Of a stretch of DNA of 64,000 bases, positions 55,726 through 64,000 are shown one piece after another (the first letter of the stretch is position 1; every line of letters begins with the position of its first letter). Source of the stretch: Desulfovibrio sp. TomC (GTDB taxonomy: Bacteria; Desulfobacterota; Desulfovibrionia; Desulfovibrionales; Desulfovibrionaceae). The notes beneath the pieces were generated by a model. The model was not told the origin of the DNA, ran no database searches, and was given only the letters and a program-made list of their open reading frames with translations. The DNA lies in assembly GCF_000801335.2 (NCBI RefSeq), contig NZ_JSEH01000012.1, positions 1-64,000 on the forward strand. The letters are read 5' to 3'. Position numbers and translations under genes: made by a program.

Positions 55726-56115
55726 ATGAAAAAGGCATTGTTATCGTGTCTCATGTGTGCAGCGTTGGTGGGCTTCGTGGCCCTGCCCGTGGTGCAGGCC
55801 GTGGATGCCCCGGCTGATGGCGTCATCAAGGCCCCCGAGGGCTTTGCCGCCACCCAGGGCGAAGTGAAATTCTCCCACAAAGGCCATGCCAAGGTCGACT
55901 GCAAAGTCTGCCACCACAAAGGCGAAGCCACCCAGAAGTGCGCCTCGGCCGGGTGTCATGACAGCACCGACCCGAAAGACAAAACCAGCGACAAATCGTT
56001 CTACCGTGCCTTCCATGACATGAAGAGCGAAAACAGCTGCATGGGCTGCCACAAGAAGGAAGCCAAGGGCCCCACCAAGTGCCCCGAGTGCCATCCCAAG
56101 AAGGGCGGCGCCTAA
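55726..56115 (+). CDS. Tetrahaem cytochrome c3 (type I)
   Basis: A 129-aa periplasmic electron carrier between hydrogenases and transmembrane complexes. Sec signal (residues 1-25, cleavage after VVQA). Four haem sites: CKVCH, CASAGCH (the CxxxxCH form typical of c3), CMGCH and CPECH. The axial histidines FSHKGH and RAFHDMK are also in the expected places. Lysine-rich surface as in type I c3. GGAGG precedes the ATG. Confidence 0.97.
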   Translation: MKKALLSCLMCAALVGFVALPVVQAVDAPADGVIKAPEGFAATQGEVKFSHKGHAKVDCKVCHHKGEATQKCASAGCHDSTDPKDKTSDKSFYRAFHDMKSENSCMGCHKKEAKGPTKCPECHPKKGGA

Positions 56116-56160: not shown

Positions 56161-56194
56161 GCCCGCATTGACGCCTAATCGGCCGAGGTATCCC

Positions 56195-58234
56195 ATGGCG
56201 ATCGACAAGCCCCTTCCCGACAGCGACGACGACATCATCGACCTCACCGACTTCGTGGAAGAGGGAACCGACTCCAAAAGCGCGGCCGGCGACAACGACG
56301 TCGACATGAGTTTCGAACAGGAACTCGACGACCTCTTCGGCGATGCCGAACCCATGCCGGCCAAAGCCGTTCCGGCGGCTCAAAACGCCACGGCCGACGC
56401 CGACGACGAACTGTTCGATCTGGCCGGCTTCGAAATCGCGGACGACGACGCCAAAGCCACCCCCACTGCCGCCACCGCCGACGCTGACGCCGACGACGAC
56501 ATCATGGATCTCGCCGGCCTTGGCCTCGATGCACCCGACAGTCCGGACATCCTCGCCTTCGACGAGGACAAGCCCGCCGCCCCCGCCAAGGCCGCCGTCC
56601 CGGCCAGTGCCGACGACGACGCCCTGGATATTTCCGACATGAGCTTCGACGACCTGGGCAAAGGCGACGCGCCCAAGGCCAAAGACACGGCCGACAGTTT
56701 CGATGACCTCGATTTCGGCGACCTCGAAGAACAATCCTCTGCCGACGCCCCGGCCGAAGAAGCCCTGGATGGCGCTGCCGCAGACAGTCCGAAACTGCAA
56801 ACGCCTGAAGCCATCGCCGCCGTCCTCACCGACGACGACGACGCGGTGTCCGACGCCGACCTCGACGCCCTGTTGGCCGAACCCTATGCCGACGATGCCG
56901 CCATGCCCGACCTGCTTGGCGCGCTGCCCGATTCCCCTGAAGTCGATCTGCCGGGCATGGCGGACATGCCCGATATGGCAGACATGGCGAACGGGACGGA
57001 CGATGCCGTCGCCCCAGCCGCAGCCATGGCCGCTGCCGCCGTGCCCCTGGCCGCCATGGCCGCAGCTGCCTCGGCCAGAGCCGACAACGGGCCTTCGGTT
57101 GGCGGCATTGACCTCGGCGCGCTCGACACCCTCATCGACTCGTCCAAGGCTCCCCAGGCCCAACCCGAGGTCCAGCCCGCCCCGGATGCGGCCCTGGCCC
57201 AACGTCTGGCGGCCCTGGAAACCGCTGCCGCCGACCTCGGCCAACGCCTCGACGCCCTGCCCGAAGTCCCGAACGAGGACGCCCTGGCCGTGGCCCTGGC
57301 CTCCCGGCTGGAAGGAGCCCTGTCACTTCGCCTGGAAACCCTGCTCGCCAGCCACAGCCCGGCTCTGGATCTGGACGGATTCAAGGCCGGAATCCTTGAA
57401 GAACTGCACGCCACTCTGGACGACCACCTGACAGCCTTGCGCGACGAACTGCCGGCCGCCGGCGATCCGGCCCGCAACGACGAGCTGACCGCAGCCCTCG
57501 ATAGCCTGCGCGAAGCCGTCACCCGCCAGGAAGCCCTGTCCCAGGGACGCCACACCCAGTTCGAAGATTTCGCCCAGACCATGGAAACCCGCATCGCCGA
57601 ATTGCGCCGCGAACTGCCGGACCCCGACGATTTCGTCACCGCCAAACGCCTCACCGAAGCCCTGGACAGCCTGCGCGAATCTCTGGGCGACGATCTGGCC
57701 GAACGCCTGCAAACGACCGGCGACAGCCTGCAAACCCTGGCCGGACGCATCGAAGCCCTGGAAACGGATCGCATCGACCCCGACGCCCTAGCCGAAAAAC
57801 TGCGGACCAGCCTGACCGACGAGTTGACCGCCAGCCTGGAGACCCGCTTGGACGAAACGGCCAAAGACGCCCGCGAGGCCGTCGAAAGCCTGGGCGACAC
57901 CCTGGCCGGACGCATCGAGGCCCTGGAATCAGACCGCATTGATCCCGACGCCCTGGCCGAAAAACTACGCGCCAGCCTTCTGGCCGACGCAGCCACCCCC
58001 AAAGACCTGGAGAAGGCCGCCGAAACCGCTGCCCAGGCCAAGGCCGATGCCCAAAAAGCCCTGGAGGGACTCGACTCCCGCCTGACGCCCGGCGATCTCG
58101 ACGCCGCCCTCAAAAAGCTGCGCAGCGACTTGACCACCGAGATGGCCGCTGCAATGGAACGCACCGTGCCCCAGGCGGCAGCGGCCGTCATCCGCGAAGA
58201 GATCGCAGCCTTGTTGCAGGAGTTTGAAGGGTAA
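56195..58234 (+). CDS. Acidic coiled-coil protein with internal repeats (679 aa)
   Basis: Residues 1 to about 300 are extremely Asp/Ala-rich and disordered, with recurring short motifs ending in DDD, DLAGF, DISDM and LDALL. Residues about 310-679 are helical with coiled-coil character and contain two near-identical units, LAGRIEALETDRIDPDALAE and LAGRIEALESDRIDPDALAE, about 56 residues apart. There is no signal peptide or membrane segment. GAGG precedes the ATG. Could be a cytoskeletal, scaffold or pole-organising protein. No family recognised. Confidence 0.7.
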   Translation: MAIDKPLPDSDDDIIDLTDFVEEGTDSKSAAGDNDVDMSFEQELDDLFGDAEPMPAKAVPAAQNATADADDELFDLAGFEIADDDAKATPTAATADADADDDIMDLAGLGLDAPDSPDILAFDEDKPAAPAKAAVPASADDDALDISDMSFDDLGKGDAPKAKDTADSFDDLDFGDLEEQSSADAPAEEALDGAAADSPKLQTPEAIAAVLTDDDDAVSDADLDALLAEPYADDAAMPDLLGALPDSPEVDLPGMADMPDMADMANGTDDAVAPAAAMAAAAVPLAAMAAAASARADNGPSVGGIDLGALDTLIDSSKAPQAQPEVQPAPDAALAQRLAALETAAADLGQRLDALPEVPNEDALAVALASRLEGALSLRLETLLASHSPALDLDGFKAGILEELHATLDDHLTALRDELPAAGDPARNDELTAALDSLREAVTRQEALSQGRHTQFEDFAQTMETRIAELRRELPDPDDFVTAKRLTEALDSLRESLGDDLAERLQTTGDSLQTLAGRIEALETDRIDPDALAEKLRTSLTDELTASLETRLDETAKDAREAVESLGDTLAGRIEALESDRIDPDALAEKLRASLLADAATPKDLEKAAETAAQAKADAQKALEGLDSRLTPGDLDAALKKLRSDLTTEMAAAMERTVPQAAAAVIREEIAALLQEFEG

Positions 58235-58693: not shown

Positions 58694-59539
58694 TTATTCG
58701 TATTTCTTGGCGTAGGCGGCGTCGTTGTAGAGGGCTTCGCCGTGGGTTTCTTTGCCAAAGGCATTGATGATGGCTTGGCCTTTGGGCGAGGCGACAAAGG
58801 TGATGAAGCCTGCGGCCAGGTCGGAGACGGGTTTGCCGTCTTTCTGGGCGCACAGGGCGTGGTAGGTATTGACGAGCTTTTTATCGCCCGAGAACAGGAC
58901 GGCCAGTTTGGGCGTATTGTTTTTTTCGGCCGCCCAGGTGCTGCTGTCGGTCATGAAGTAGCCGCCTTCGTCGTTGGCGCGTTTGAGGGTGGCGGTCATG
59001 AAGGCTTTGGTGACGATGTACCAGTCGCCGGCGGGTTCGATGCCGGCGTCTTTCCAGGTATCCATTTCTTTTTTGTGGGTCCCGGAGTTGTCGCCGCGCG
59101 AGAAGAATCTGGCCTGGGCTTTGGCTATCTTCTGGTAGGCGGCGGCGGCGGAGGCGGCTTTGGCGATGCCGGCAGGGTCGTTGGCCGGACCGACGATGAA
59201 GAATTCGTTGGAGCCGATGAGGCTGGCGCAGCCAGCCCAGCCTTCGGCCTGGGCTTTTTTCTCGGCGGCCGGGGCGTGGACCATGATCATGTCGGTTTCA
59301 CCGGCTTTGAGCAGATCAAGGGACTGTCCGGAGCCGGCCTTGATCCAGTCGAGGCGGCATTGGTTGGCCGCGCAGTAGGCTTCGCCGAGCTGACGCAAAA
59401 GGCCCAGCTCGCCGGGGCTGCCGGTGGCCAGGGTGAAGCTCTTGGGCCCGGGACCATAACGCTCTTCGACGTTGGGGCCGGCGAATGCGGCGGCGGCGAA
59501 CAGACACAGGACCAGGACCAGAAGGCTGATGGTGCGCAT
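58694..59539 (-). CDS. tupA: Tungstate-type ABC transporter substrate-binding protein (TupA-like)
   Basis: A 281-aa periplasmic binding protein with Sec signal (LLVLVLCLFAAAAFA). KSFTLATGSPGELGLLRQL, GETDMIMVHAPAAEKKA, NEFFIVGPANDPAGI and SRGDNSGTHKKEMDTW are typical of TupA/WtpA-like oxyanion binders. AAGGAGG precedes the ATG at 59539. No permease or ATPase adjoins leftward, so the rest of the transporter is elsewhere. Tungstate supply would serve formate dehydrogenases and aldehyde oxidoreductases. Molybdate is an alternative ligand. Confidence 0.8.
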   Translation of the reverse strand: MRTISLLVLVLCLFAAAAFAGPNVEERYGPGPKSFTLATGSPGELGLLRQLGEAYCAANQCRLDWIKAGSGQSLDLLKAGETDMIMVHAPAAEKKAQAEGWAGCASLIGSNEFFIVGPANDPAGIAKAASAAAAYQKIAKAQARFFSRGDNSGTHKKEMDTWKDAGIEPAGDWYIVTKAFMTATLKRANDEGGYFMTDSSTWAAEKNNTPKLAVLFSGDKKLVNTYHALCAQKDGKPVSDLAAGFITFVASPKGQAIINAFGKETHGEALYNDAAYAKKYE

Positions 59540-59559
59540 GGGGGCGTCCTCCTTTTGGG

Positions 59560-59627: not shown

Positions 59628-59670
59628 ATGTCATTTTTAGCAAACACCTTCCCGCTCCATAGAGGGCTTT

Positions 59671-59691
59671 ACACGTAATGGGATTACGTGT
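59671..59691. promoter_or_regulatory. Palindrome upstream of XRE-hybrid kinase
   Basis: ACACGTAAT-ggg-ATTACGTGT is a perfect 9-bp inverted repeat about 40 bases before the kinase ATG, in the expected place for an operator. The ACACG/CGTGT ends match the arms at 6617-6630, though the spacing differs by 7 bases. Confidence 0.5.
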
Positions 59692-59732
59692 TTTTATCGG
59701 GCCAGCAAAACACTCCCTGGCTGGAAACCCGC

Positions 59733-62700
59733 ATGGCCCGAACTGATTTCAACTTTCTTTTTGGCCGCAGATTGCGGCACTTACGGCGCTTATGCGGTCT
59801 GACCCAGGCTGGTCTGGCCGGCCAGTCGGGCGTTTCCCTTGAGCATTTAAACAAGATCGAGCGAGGAGCGGCCGCTCCGTCCCTGGCTGTGGTCGAGGCC
59901 TTTTGCCAGGCGCTGGCGGTGGAGCCGGCGGTGTTGTTTTTGTTTAGCCCGGGCAACCGGGATGCACCTGACGCGGCCGGCATCAACTGGGCCGCGGCCC
60001 ACGCCCGACAGGGATTTTTCGCCTGGCAGCCGGCCAGCGGGATAATGCGGGTGGCCGGGTCGTTGCGTCGGCTGCTTGGCTATTCCGGCAAAGAGCGGCA
60101 TGAACCGTTGCAGTCATTTTTCGACACGGTCTTCCCCAAGGAGGCTGCGGCAACGGCTGCCGCGCTGGCCGCCCTGACCGCTCCGGGCGACCGTCAGACG
60201 CTGGCGGTGCTCTTTTGTCGCCGTGACGGCGAGTTGCGCCATGGGTCCCTGATGCTGGAGCTGGTGGGCAACACCCGCGACGGCCTGTGGGGCGTGGGCG
60301 TGTTGGCCGACGTGTCCGAACCGTACCGGCTGGAGCGGATGGTGCGGGCCGAAGCCGCCCTGGTGGATCGACGGGTGCGCGAGCGCACGACCCGGCTGGA
60401 ACGAACCATGGATCGGCTGCGCCGGGAAGGCGCCGAACTGGCCGAGCAGCTGCGCCGTTACCAGGGTGTTTTCGAAAATGCCCCGCTGGGCATTGCCCTG
60501 ACCACCCCCGAGGGCCGCTATATCGAAGCCAATACGGCCTTGGCCCGGCTGTACGGCTATGACTCGCCAGCCCAGTTGGGGCGCATGGTCCACAACATAG
60601 CCGACCAGCTCTATGCCGATCCGACCAAGCGCGACGAGCTCGCCCTCCGGTTGGCCGAGGATGGCCGGGTGGACCGTTTCGAGGCCTCGGTGCGGCGACG
60701 GGACGGCACCTTGCTGGCCACCCGGCGAAATGTCCGGATCGTAACCGGACCAACCGGGGAACTCTCGCATTACGAGCATTTCGTACAGGATTCTTCGGCC
60801 CTGGAAAGCGCCGAACACGATCTGCGCCGCTATGCCCGTATCATTGCCGCCTCCTCGGACCTCGTGGCCCTGGTCGATCCGCAGGGCCGGTATCTGTTCG
60901 TCAACGACGCCTATGTGGCGGCCTATGGCCGGAGCCAGGACGCCATTGTCGGCCACCATGTCGCAGAATTTCTTGGACAACAGTATTTCGACGAGATCAT
61001 GGCCCCGCGGATGGCCGAATGCTTGCGCGGCGACAATGTCCGTTTCGAGGTCTGGCTGCAGTTGGAAGGCCTGGGTCGCCGCTATCTCTCCATCCAGTAT
61101 TCGCCCTGGTCCGAGGCAGGACTCGACCACCGTTGCGTGGTCATCAATGCCCGGGACATGACCGAGACCAGACTGGCCGTGGAAGAACTGCGCGACAGCG
61201 AAAAAACCACCTCCATCCTGTACCGGGTCTCCAGTGCCGTGGCCACGGAAGAGGACATGGACGGTCTGTTTACGACCATTCGCAACATCCTTGGCGAAGC
61301 CATAGACGTGCATGAATTTTCCATTGCCCTGGCCGATCGGGACAACGATTGCCTCGACTATGTGCTTTTCGACAGCCAGGACGAACCGCAGCCGCCCCCT
61401 CTGACGGGTCTGGCCAACCGGCTCACCCCCCTGACCCGCGACAATTTCAGCGACTTCAAGGAAACAAGCGTCTTGATCGAAGTCATGCGCACGGCCCACC
61501 CCCTGCTTGTCACCCGGCGGGGGATGCGCCTGACCGGTCTGACCTGTCCGGGCGGCCGTATCCCCGAGGTCTGGCTTGGCGTCCCCATCCGGGTGCGCCA
61601 GGAGGTGCTCGGCGTCATGGCGGTGATGCATTTTTCCGATGCCGGCCGGTACGGCAAGAAGGAAGCCGAACTCCTGCTGTCCGTGGCCGAACAGCTGGCC
61701 CTTGGCGTGGAGCGTCGGCGCAACCTCAAGGCCCTTTGGGCCGCCAAAGAGGAAGCCGACCGGGCCAACCAGGCCAAAAGCCGGTTTTTGGCCAGCATGA
61801 GCCACGAAATCCGCACGCCCATGAACGCCATTTTGGGCCTGACCGACATGACCCTGCACACCGCACTGACCCCGGAGCAACGCGACTACATGGAAACGGT
61901 CCAGGAATCGGCCCAGCACCTGCTCGGCATTTTAAACGACATCCTGGACTTTTCCAAAATCGAGGCCCGCCAGATGGACCTTGAGCTGGTGGATTACGAT
62001 CTCCACGAGCTATTCCGTTCGGTGGTCAAGACGCTCGGCGTTTCGGCCCGGAACAAGGACCTGTGGCTCAACCTGGACATCACCGCCGGCGCCCCCCGCC
62101 TTGTTCGCGGCGATCCCGGCAAAATCCGCCAGATCCTGGTCAATCTTGTGGGCAATGCCGTCAAATTCACCGCCGCCGGCGGCGTGTCCCTGCGGCTTTG
62201 CCATGCGCCGCCTGACGCGGGACAGCCCCCCCGGCTGCATCTCACCGTGGCCGACACCGGCATCGGCATCGACCCGGCCCTGTTTGACACTATTTTCGAA
62301 AGCTTCCGCCAGGCCGACAATTCCACGGCCCGCCGCTACGGCGGCACCGGCCTTGGGCTGGCCATCAGCCGGGAGATGGCCCATCTCATGGAAGGCGACA
62401 TTACCGTGGTTTCCACCCCGGGCAAGGGCAGTTGTTTCACCCTGACCATCCCCTTTGTCCCGGGCCGGCCAACCACCGCCCACCCAGTCCCCCAGCCGGG
62501 CAGACGACGCCGCCTGCGGGTGCTGCTGGCCGAGGACAACCCGGTCAATATCAAACTGATGAACATTCACCTCGCCAAACTCGGCCATGAGGCGGTCATC
62601 GCCACCTCCGGCGAGGCGGCTTTGACCGAGCTGGCCCAGTCGCGTTTCGACCTGGTGCTGATGGATATCGAGATGCCGTCCATGGACGGCCTGACCGCCG

Positions 62701-63305
62701 CCCGCCTCATCCGGGCCGGCGGCAGGCCCCAGAACCCGGTAACTGATCCCGACGTGCCCATTGTGGCCGTCACCGCCCATGTTTCCCAGGATGTGCGCCA
62801 GGCCTGCACCGCCGCCGGCATGAATGCCTATATCTTCAAACCGATCAACCTCGACGAACTGGCCTCGACCATCGACCTGCTCACCCCTTCGGAAGCCGCC
62901 ACGCCCGTCACGCCGGCGGCGGCGACGGAACTGCCGGCCCCGCCGGCCCAGTCCCCTGTCCCGGCCGACGGCCCCAAGGGCGTACTGGACACGGATTGGG
63001 CTTTGGCCCGCCTGGGCATCGATCAAGAAATCTTCAGTCCCATTCTGGCTATTTCTTTGCAGGAATTACGAAAACGCCTGGAGGCGACGGACCTCGCCCT
63101 CAAGGATCGGGACATGGCCAAGCTGTCTCTGCACGGCCACACCATGAAATCGGCGGCAGCCACCATCGGCGCAGCCCTATGCCAGGAATTGGCCGCCGCA
63201 CTGGAACGGGCCGGCAAACAGCAACACTATGACGAAGCGGTGCGCCTGACCGCCCAGCTTCGAAACGCCTTTGCCGACGTCCTGGCTGCTGTCGGACAAT
63301 CTTGA
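59733..63305 (+). CDS. XRE-HTH / PAS / GAF / hybrid histidine kinase with receiver and Hpt domains
   Basis: A 1190-aa cytosolic protein. Residues about 8-65 are an XRE HTH ([20 protein letters not shown]). Three PAS domains (about 85-490) and a GAF domain (about 495-660) follow. The kinase has [19 protein letters not shown] (phospho-His near residue 692), [19 protein letters not shown] and [11 protein letters not shown] receiver follows with [15 protein letters not shown] and [13 protein letters not shown] (phospho-Asp), then a C-terminal Hpt domain with [14 protein letters not shown]. Thus sensing, full phosphorelay and DNA binding are in one chain. ATG 59733 chosen because a GTG at 59688 lies in the palindrome. 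Confidence 0.9.
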
Positions 63306-63378
63306 CGCCGCCAGCCGCATTTGCGAAAAATATACCCTTACGCCAAGCCAGCCACGCCGCTGGCACAGGAAAGACGCC

Positions 63379-63747
63379 ATGCCCGTATTGCTTATTGCCG
63401 ACGACTCCATGTTCCAGCGATTCCAGACCGCCAAAACCGCCAAGGAAGCCGGGTTTGACGTCCTCGAGGCCAAGGACGGCGAAGAATGCCTGCGTCTGGC
63501 CCGGGAACACCGCCCCCACGTCCTGCTCCTGGACCTCAACATGCCCGATCCGGGGGGGGTGGCCGTGCTGGAAGTCCTGTCCCGGGAACAGCCCGGCATC
63601 CAGGTCTGCGTGGTCACGGCCGACATCCAGGAAACCACCCGTTCCCGGTGTATGGAACTCGGCGCCCGGGAGTTTCTCAACAAGCCCGTTGACCAGGCCG
63701 TCCTGCGCGAGACCCTGGCCAGCCTGCTTGTCTCCCGCAAGGATTGA
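63379..63747 (+). CDS. Stand-alone CheY-type receiver
   Basis: A 122-aa response regulator receiver: acidic pair and start (VLLIADDSMFQRFQTAKTA), LLLDLNMPDPGG with the phospho-Asp near residue 53, VVTAD (Thr switch) and EFLNKPV (Lys). No output domain. It follows the hybrid kinase by 73 bases and precedes a CheC-like gene by 5, so it is probably the target of one or the other. Confidence 0.9.
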   Translation: MPVLLIADDSMFQRFQTAKTAKEAGFDVLEAKDGEECLRLAREHRPHVLLLDLNMPDPGGVAVLEVLSREQPGIQVCVVTADIQETTRSRCMELGAREFLNKPVDQAVLRETLASLLVSRKD

Positions 63748-63752
63748 CCGCC

Positions 63753-64000
63753 ATGCCGCTTTCCTCCTTGCAGCTCGACATCATGCAGGAGCTGATCAAT
63801 ATCGGCGTGGGCCGGGCCGCCGGAATGCTCAACCAGATGGTCAACACCCACATCCAGCTGCAAGTGCCGGTCTTGCGGGTGTTGACGCCAAACCAGCTGG
63901 CGGCGCTGTACGCCACGCGCCCCAACTCGGTCTTCTCAGCGGTCCAGCTGTCGTTTACCGGCCAATTCGCCGGCATCAGCGCCCTTATTTTTCCGCCCAA
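63753..64000 (+). CDS. cheC: CheC-type phosphatase (partial, cut by window end)
   Basis: The first 82 residues are present. SLQLDIMQELINIGVGRAAG followed by MLNQMV is the CheC/CheX/FliY active-site helix with the ExxN signature. The gene is 5 bases downstream of the CheY-like receiver. CheC dephosphorylates CheY-type proteins, so this pair is likely functionally linked. Confidence 0.75.
   Translation, partial: MPLSSLQLDIMQELINIGVGRAAGMLNQMVNTHIQLQVPVLRVLTPNQLAALYATRPNSVFSAVQLSFTGQFAGISALIFPP

Follow-up and report, generated by a model that had tools for sequence, protein, structure and literature searches.

Organisation of the locus

The DNA analysed here, referred to as the window, comprises the first 64,000 nucleotides of contig NZ_JSEH01000012.1 from Desulfovibrio sp. 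TomC. The nearest named genomes belong to Solidesulfovibrio, and the host of the kinase described below is a Solidesulfovibrio. Near the end of the window, a hybrid histidine kinase of 1190 aa (59733..63305), a stand-alone CheY-like receiver of 122 aa (63379..63747) and a predicted CheC-like phosphatase of 196 aa follow one another on the plus strand. The CheC-like gene occupies 63753..64000 in the window and ends at contig position 64340. A TupA-like gene (58697..59542, minus strand) diverges from the kinase, and a 21-bp palindrome at 59671..59691, a putative operator, lies in the kinase promoter. The preliminary description of this DNA, in which an XRE helix-turn-helix (HTH) shared one 1190-residue chain with a hybrid kinase, a receiver and an Hpt, was correct in coordinates and domain order according to the ORF and Pfam search. 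The stand-alone receiver and the CheC-like protein were also found downstream as described, the latter running past the window edge. The operator and the divergent TupA-like gene had been overlooked.

The order HTH-PAS-PAS-PAS-GAF-HisKA-HATPase-REC-Hpt is based on the ORF, Pfam matches, motifs and the predicted fold, and the start ATG at 59733 aligns with an M1 that is invariant across 12 aligned orthologues. Failure of the N-terminal region to match HTH profiles had been named beforehand as a reason to abandon the description. The region matches both HTH_31 (4.5e-14, 53 bits against a cut-off of 27) and HTH_3 (2.3e-9, 37.6 bits against a cut-off of 23), giving an XRE head at residues 10–67 (59760..59933, plus strand). 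The first PAS domain (PAS_3, residues 106–170) scores slightly below the Pfam cut-off, and it is followed by Pfam PAS domains at residues 241–350 and 366–480 and a GAF domain at residues 508–657 (2e-8). No periplasmic sensor domain was matched in the Pfam search of the kinase. The predicted fold of residues 1–665 (mean pLDDT 70) consists of a five-helix head, a PAS domain, a long helix (195–249) and two further PAS domains, with the GAF domain poorly resolved.

The C-terminal half carries HisKA (residues 681–745, 61773..61967, PF00512, 9.6e-21), HATPase_c (residues 793–908, 2e-27), an internal receiver (residues 930–1047, 62520..62873, PF00072, 4.5e-24) and Hpt (residues 1104–1185, 63042..63287, PF01627, 3.5e-8), all on the plus strand, and the phospho-acceptor motif of Hpt, HTMKS, starts at residue 1136. 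With these four domains and their phospho-acceptor residues, the protein is a hybrid kinase with Hpt of the ArcB/BarA/TorS type, and its core matches the TorS, BarA and ArcB models, each below the equivalog cut-off. The catalytic motifs (one ending [VIL]KF; DTGIGI; LMD[IV]EMP; HT[MLI]KS) remain intact in all orthologues whose sequence includes them. Within the genus, the head is conserved to the same degree as HisKA. Invariant positions make up 57% of the HTH, 63% of the recognition-helix region and 63% of HisKA, compared with 26% of the first PAS domain.

The kinase is present in all 14 Solidesulfovibrio genomes examined. It is adjacent to CheY and CheC in all 13 genomes that could be judged from their contigs, so that the conservation of the pair beside the kinase in relatives, on which the preliminary description depended, is borne out; G012 was left out of this count because its contig stops inside the kinase. 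The orthologue in G010 (L058:9262-12567) is 1101 aa long with a PAS region about 85 residues shorter, and it retains both the head and the operator.

The TupA-like gene diverges from the kinase in 12 of the 13 judged genomes. It encodes a periplasmic solute-binding protein (PF12849) similar to the TupA-type structures 3lr1 (2e-45) and 5my5 (1e-39), and it is an orphan with no transporter partners beside it. Against the NCBIfam TupA equivalog, which requires 400 bits, it scores 113 bits. A better TupA candidate elsewhere in the genome (G000:C5:83537) reaches 346 bits, which is also under the 400-bit cut-off. The oxyanion of the TupA-like protein may differ, because the TTST stretch of structure 3lr1 aligns to TGSP. 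Two further plus-strand genes were observed in the window: a candidate class III cytochrome c of 129 aa containing several CxxCH motifs (55726-56115), and a 688-aa acidic, alanine-rich, coiled-coil-like ORF without a Pfam match (56168-58234).

The promoter palindrome and the XRE head

The putative operator, ACACGTAAT-GGG-ATTACGTGT, is a perfect 9+3+9 inverted repeat. Its genus form, ACACGTAAT-NNN-RTTACGTGT, is found in 14/14 Solidesulfovibrio genomes, and the distance from its end to the kinase start is 38–42 bp in every one of them. When the sequences were aligned on the site, no block other than CTTTACACGTAAT....T(t)ACGTGTTT was conserved across the surrounding 140 bp or so, the flanks having diverged. 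Searching the 14 genomes with up to 3 mismatches returned one site per genome, plus one extra 3-mismatch site each in G011 and G012, and a reversed control pattern at the same tolerance gave 0–3 matches per strand. There is essentially no second credible copy of the palindrome in any genome. A second AT-rich motif about 30–45 bp before the operator seemed conserved by eye and was set aside, being loosely kept and in part matching a minus-strand -35 for the TupA-like gene.

The palindrome appears to overlap the kinase promoter. A probable sigma-70 promoter (59668..59697, plus strand) combines a fair -35, TTTACA (59668-59673), which is invariant in the genus, with an 18-bp spacer and a possible -10, TTTTAT (59692-59697). 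The promoter scanner excludes this stretch, as its rule accepts a -10 only with A as the second base. A terminator scan flags the same palindrome, with 9 pairs followed by TTTTAT, and the element could accordingly be read as an RNA hairpin or terminator with a 9-bp stem and a T-rich tail rather than as a protein site. This reading is highly improbable and was rejected. The arms conserve their sequence and not merely their pairing, and one arm of the G010 operator carries a mismatch that breaks a pair. The tail varies within the genus (TTTTAT, TTAATT, TTCTAT, TTGTAT), the related sites described below in g40 and g50 have no T tail at all (TCAGAG, CCAAGC, TCTTCT, CGTCGG), and there is no plus-strand gene directly upstream to be terminated.

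The distribution of the site beyond Solidesulfovibrio points to the protein that probably binds it. At up to 1 mismatch, it occurs in 13 of 297 genomes of the order, 11 from Solidesulfovibrio and 2 from genus g40. Both g40 sites lie upstream of the closest HTH-PAS homologue and nearer to this gene than to the divergent livK, and the two g40 proteins consist of the HTH and PAS domains without a kinase. A third g40 genome and one g50 genome, which both encode HTH-PAS-HisKA-REC proteins, have degenerate sites matching 15 and 16 of 18 positions, so that 2 of the 4 cases outside Solidesulfovibrio (3 g40 genomes and 1 g50 genome) are degenerate. A branched-chain amino acid ABC cluster, led by a livK-like gene, is transcribed divergently from these g40 and g50 genes (L097, L098, L139, L141), and an SIS_2 gene stands beside the HTH-PAS/ABC cluster in three of the genomes (L098, L139, L141).

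The 260 bp upstream of 47 distinct HTH-PAS homologues were then compared with the recognition helix of each head, the site being scored out of 18 with a threshold of at least 15. The site was present for 14 of 15 homologues with an SLEHx[NS]K recognition helix, the class of the TomC head with SLEHLNK, and for 0 of 32 with other helices (Fisher p 4e-11, uncorrected for relatedness; the orthologues are related and do not represent 47 independent events). The top score in about 2400 random windows never exceeded 14. The only homologue departing from the pattern, in G027, has a helix of the SLEHx[NS]K class, yet its site scores only 13/18. Other palindromes stand upstream of homologues with other helices, for example ACTCAAACYCCCGGTTTGTGT before TEQYIS and AAACAAGATGGAATCTTGTTT before TKQHLGQ, which may point to different operators for these heads. 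Among the other XRE proteins of the TomC genome, the three closest have different helices, including SLQSVGE and SLKHLGE.

Because the single-copy palindrome co-varies with the recognition helix across the HTH-PAS homologues, the head most likely binds the palindrome in its own promoter. The competing explanation is that another regulator, for example one of the TupA-like gene, owns the palindrome, with the HTH head being a vestige or serving protein interaction. The divergence of the TupA-like gene from the same intergenic region in nearly all judged genomes is in its favour, but in G004 the TupA-like gene is absent, with an unrelated gene in its place, and the palindrome is retained, which disfavours a TupA-linked owner. 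In addition, the g40 and g50 HTH-PAS genes, whose livK neighbour is unrelated, are preceded by this palindrome or a degenerate form of it. The co-variation of site and helix and a head as conserved as HisKA also speak against this explanation. Ownership by another regulator is hence quite improbable. TunR, the Desulfovibrio tungstate regulator, was considered for a motif comparison with the palindrome, and in a literature search for this name none of the papers listed carried it.

The preliminary description had also proposed that the kinase itself can sit on DNA. This part of the proposal gains strong though indirect support from the operator, which is single-copy and varies together with the recognition helix. 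The head itself has the appearance not of the phosphorelay's output but of an autoregulator of its operon, given that in relatives the same operator precedes HTH-PAS proteins lacking any kinase.

The CheY-CheC pair and a model of the relay

The stand-alone receiver (PF00072, 9.1e-25) adjoins the kinase in all judged genomes. The CheC-like protein matches PF04509 and, below its equivalog cut-off, the NF041093 CheC model (4.4e-17). It is similar to the Thermotoga CheC structures 2f9z/1xkr (1.9e-13), and both E..N motifs (ELIN, EVGN) are present. In other families, CheY also directly precedes CheC beside PAS-HisKA-REC-Hpt kinases in a different gene order (L099, L100), and the pair accompanies kinases without an HTH, CheA-type kinases or PAS-GGDEF proteins as well. 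Since it is found in such varied company, CheY-CheC is an exchangeable module. The repeated occurrence of the pair next to REC-Hpt kinases favours a functional link, while its association elsewhere with CheA-type kinases or diguanylate cyclases means that adjacency is no proof of this kinase as the sole phosphate source. In other families (L101, L102, L105, L106) the CheY-CheC pairs neighbour PAS-GGDEF proteins, in some cases together with CheA, a hint that the module may control c-di-GMP. A second CheC family in Solidesulfovibrio (L108:149-796, L109:6835-7452) is accompanied by a conserved ORF of some 530 aa, without an adjoining CheY.

From these features we consider that the protein is probably a phosphorelay kinase that sits on DNA and regulates itself, its head controlling its own operon while the relay runs to CheY and CheC resets it. 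The XRE head, probably as a dimer, would bind the single 21-bp palindrome and control the operon kinase-cheY-cheC. Repression is the favoured sign of regulation because the palindrome lies across the inferred -35/-10 region. The PAS/GAF sensors in the cytosol may feed the head and the kinase core alike, thereby coupling signal to DNA binding. In the active kinase, phosphate would pass from His (HisKA) to Asp (REC), to His (Hpt) and on to the stand-alone CheY, and CheC would reset CheY-P; both the order of transfer and the action of CheC on this CheY are deduced from the protein families.

Head and relay may instead be separate devices that share sensors, with the head a one-component autoregulator deaf to phosphorylation and CheY-CheC answering mainly to another kinase, in chemotaxis or c-di-GMP control. 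The kinase-less g40 HTH-PAS proteins with the same operator are consistent with this arrangement, as are the CheY-CheC pairs beside CheA or PAS-GGDEF genes in other genera and the dozens of further hybrid kinases encoded in the TomC genome. However, the strict kinase-CheY-CheC adjacency within Solidesulfovibrio and the reappearance of the CheY-CheC pair next to a REC-Hpt kinase of another family argue against it, and we regard such a separation as unlikely. An extension of the self-regulating model, in which a dimeric kinase seated on its operator changes its autokinase state, appears quite unlikely. Were this two-way coupling true, the promoter-bound relay would sense the occupancy of its own gene and signal it through CheY from DNA.

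Comparison with known systems

As a rule, the effects of a histidine kinase are mediated by a separate DNA-binding response regulator. No described case of a kinase fused to an XRE head was found in an open-access literature search, which is not proof of absence, and HTH-PAS kinases occur in several genera of the order. The solved structure closest to the head is the restriction-modification controller protein C.AhdI. Controller proteins of this kind are a class of small self-regulating XRE proteins; unlike the TomC kinase, C.AhdI has a single domain and neither sensor nor kinase. Closer relatives are the g40 XRE-PAS one-component regulators (G139, G244), which share the head class and the same operator upstream of their own gene, but have only several PAS domains and no kinase, and are divergent from livK. 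Hybrid kinases of the ArcB/BarA/TorS type have no DNA-binding domain in the chain, in contrast to the N-terminal HTH of the TomC kinase.

DNA-binding kinases are already known in other forms. TodS was reported in 1997 as a bZIP-type kinase (cited in PMC4321377). It resembles the TomC kinase in being a complex PAS-containing kinase with an internal receiver and a reported DNA-binding-type element, and differs in having a bZIP-like element instead of an XRE head, two kinase modules and the dedicated response regulator TodT, with no CheY-CheC. The Bacteroides hybrid two-component systems also unite a kinase and a receiver with a DNA-binding domain in a single chain (PMC11253607). There, the sensor is in the membrane and the DNA-binding domain is C-terminal, after the receiver that controls it, whereas the TomC kinase has its XRE head N-terminal to the sensors, an Hpt rather than an HTH after REC, and a predicted relay on to CheY. 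For the downstream pair, the CheC-like DifG of Myxococcus xanthus speeds dephosphorylation of the CheY-like DifD, a proposed phosphate sink (PMC4671073). DifD-DifG is likewise a stand-alone CheY with a CheC, but it is fed by the CheA-type kinase DifE and not by a DNA-binding hybrid kinase.

Two features are new here: a complete REC-Hpt relay, accompanied by CheY-CheC, that bears an XRE head, and a predicted self-operator whose occurrence follows this head whether or not the protein includes a kinase. A full four-step relay would thus have its own operator-specific head, with a defined DNA target that is nearly unique in each genome. This opens DNA-binding hybrid kinases, a rarely studied class, to direct tests that need just a single protein, a 21-bp probe and a receiver. 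Compared with the one-component HTH-PAS regulators, the case points to a route between these and phosphorelay regulators along which the same operator is retained.
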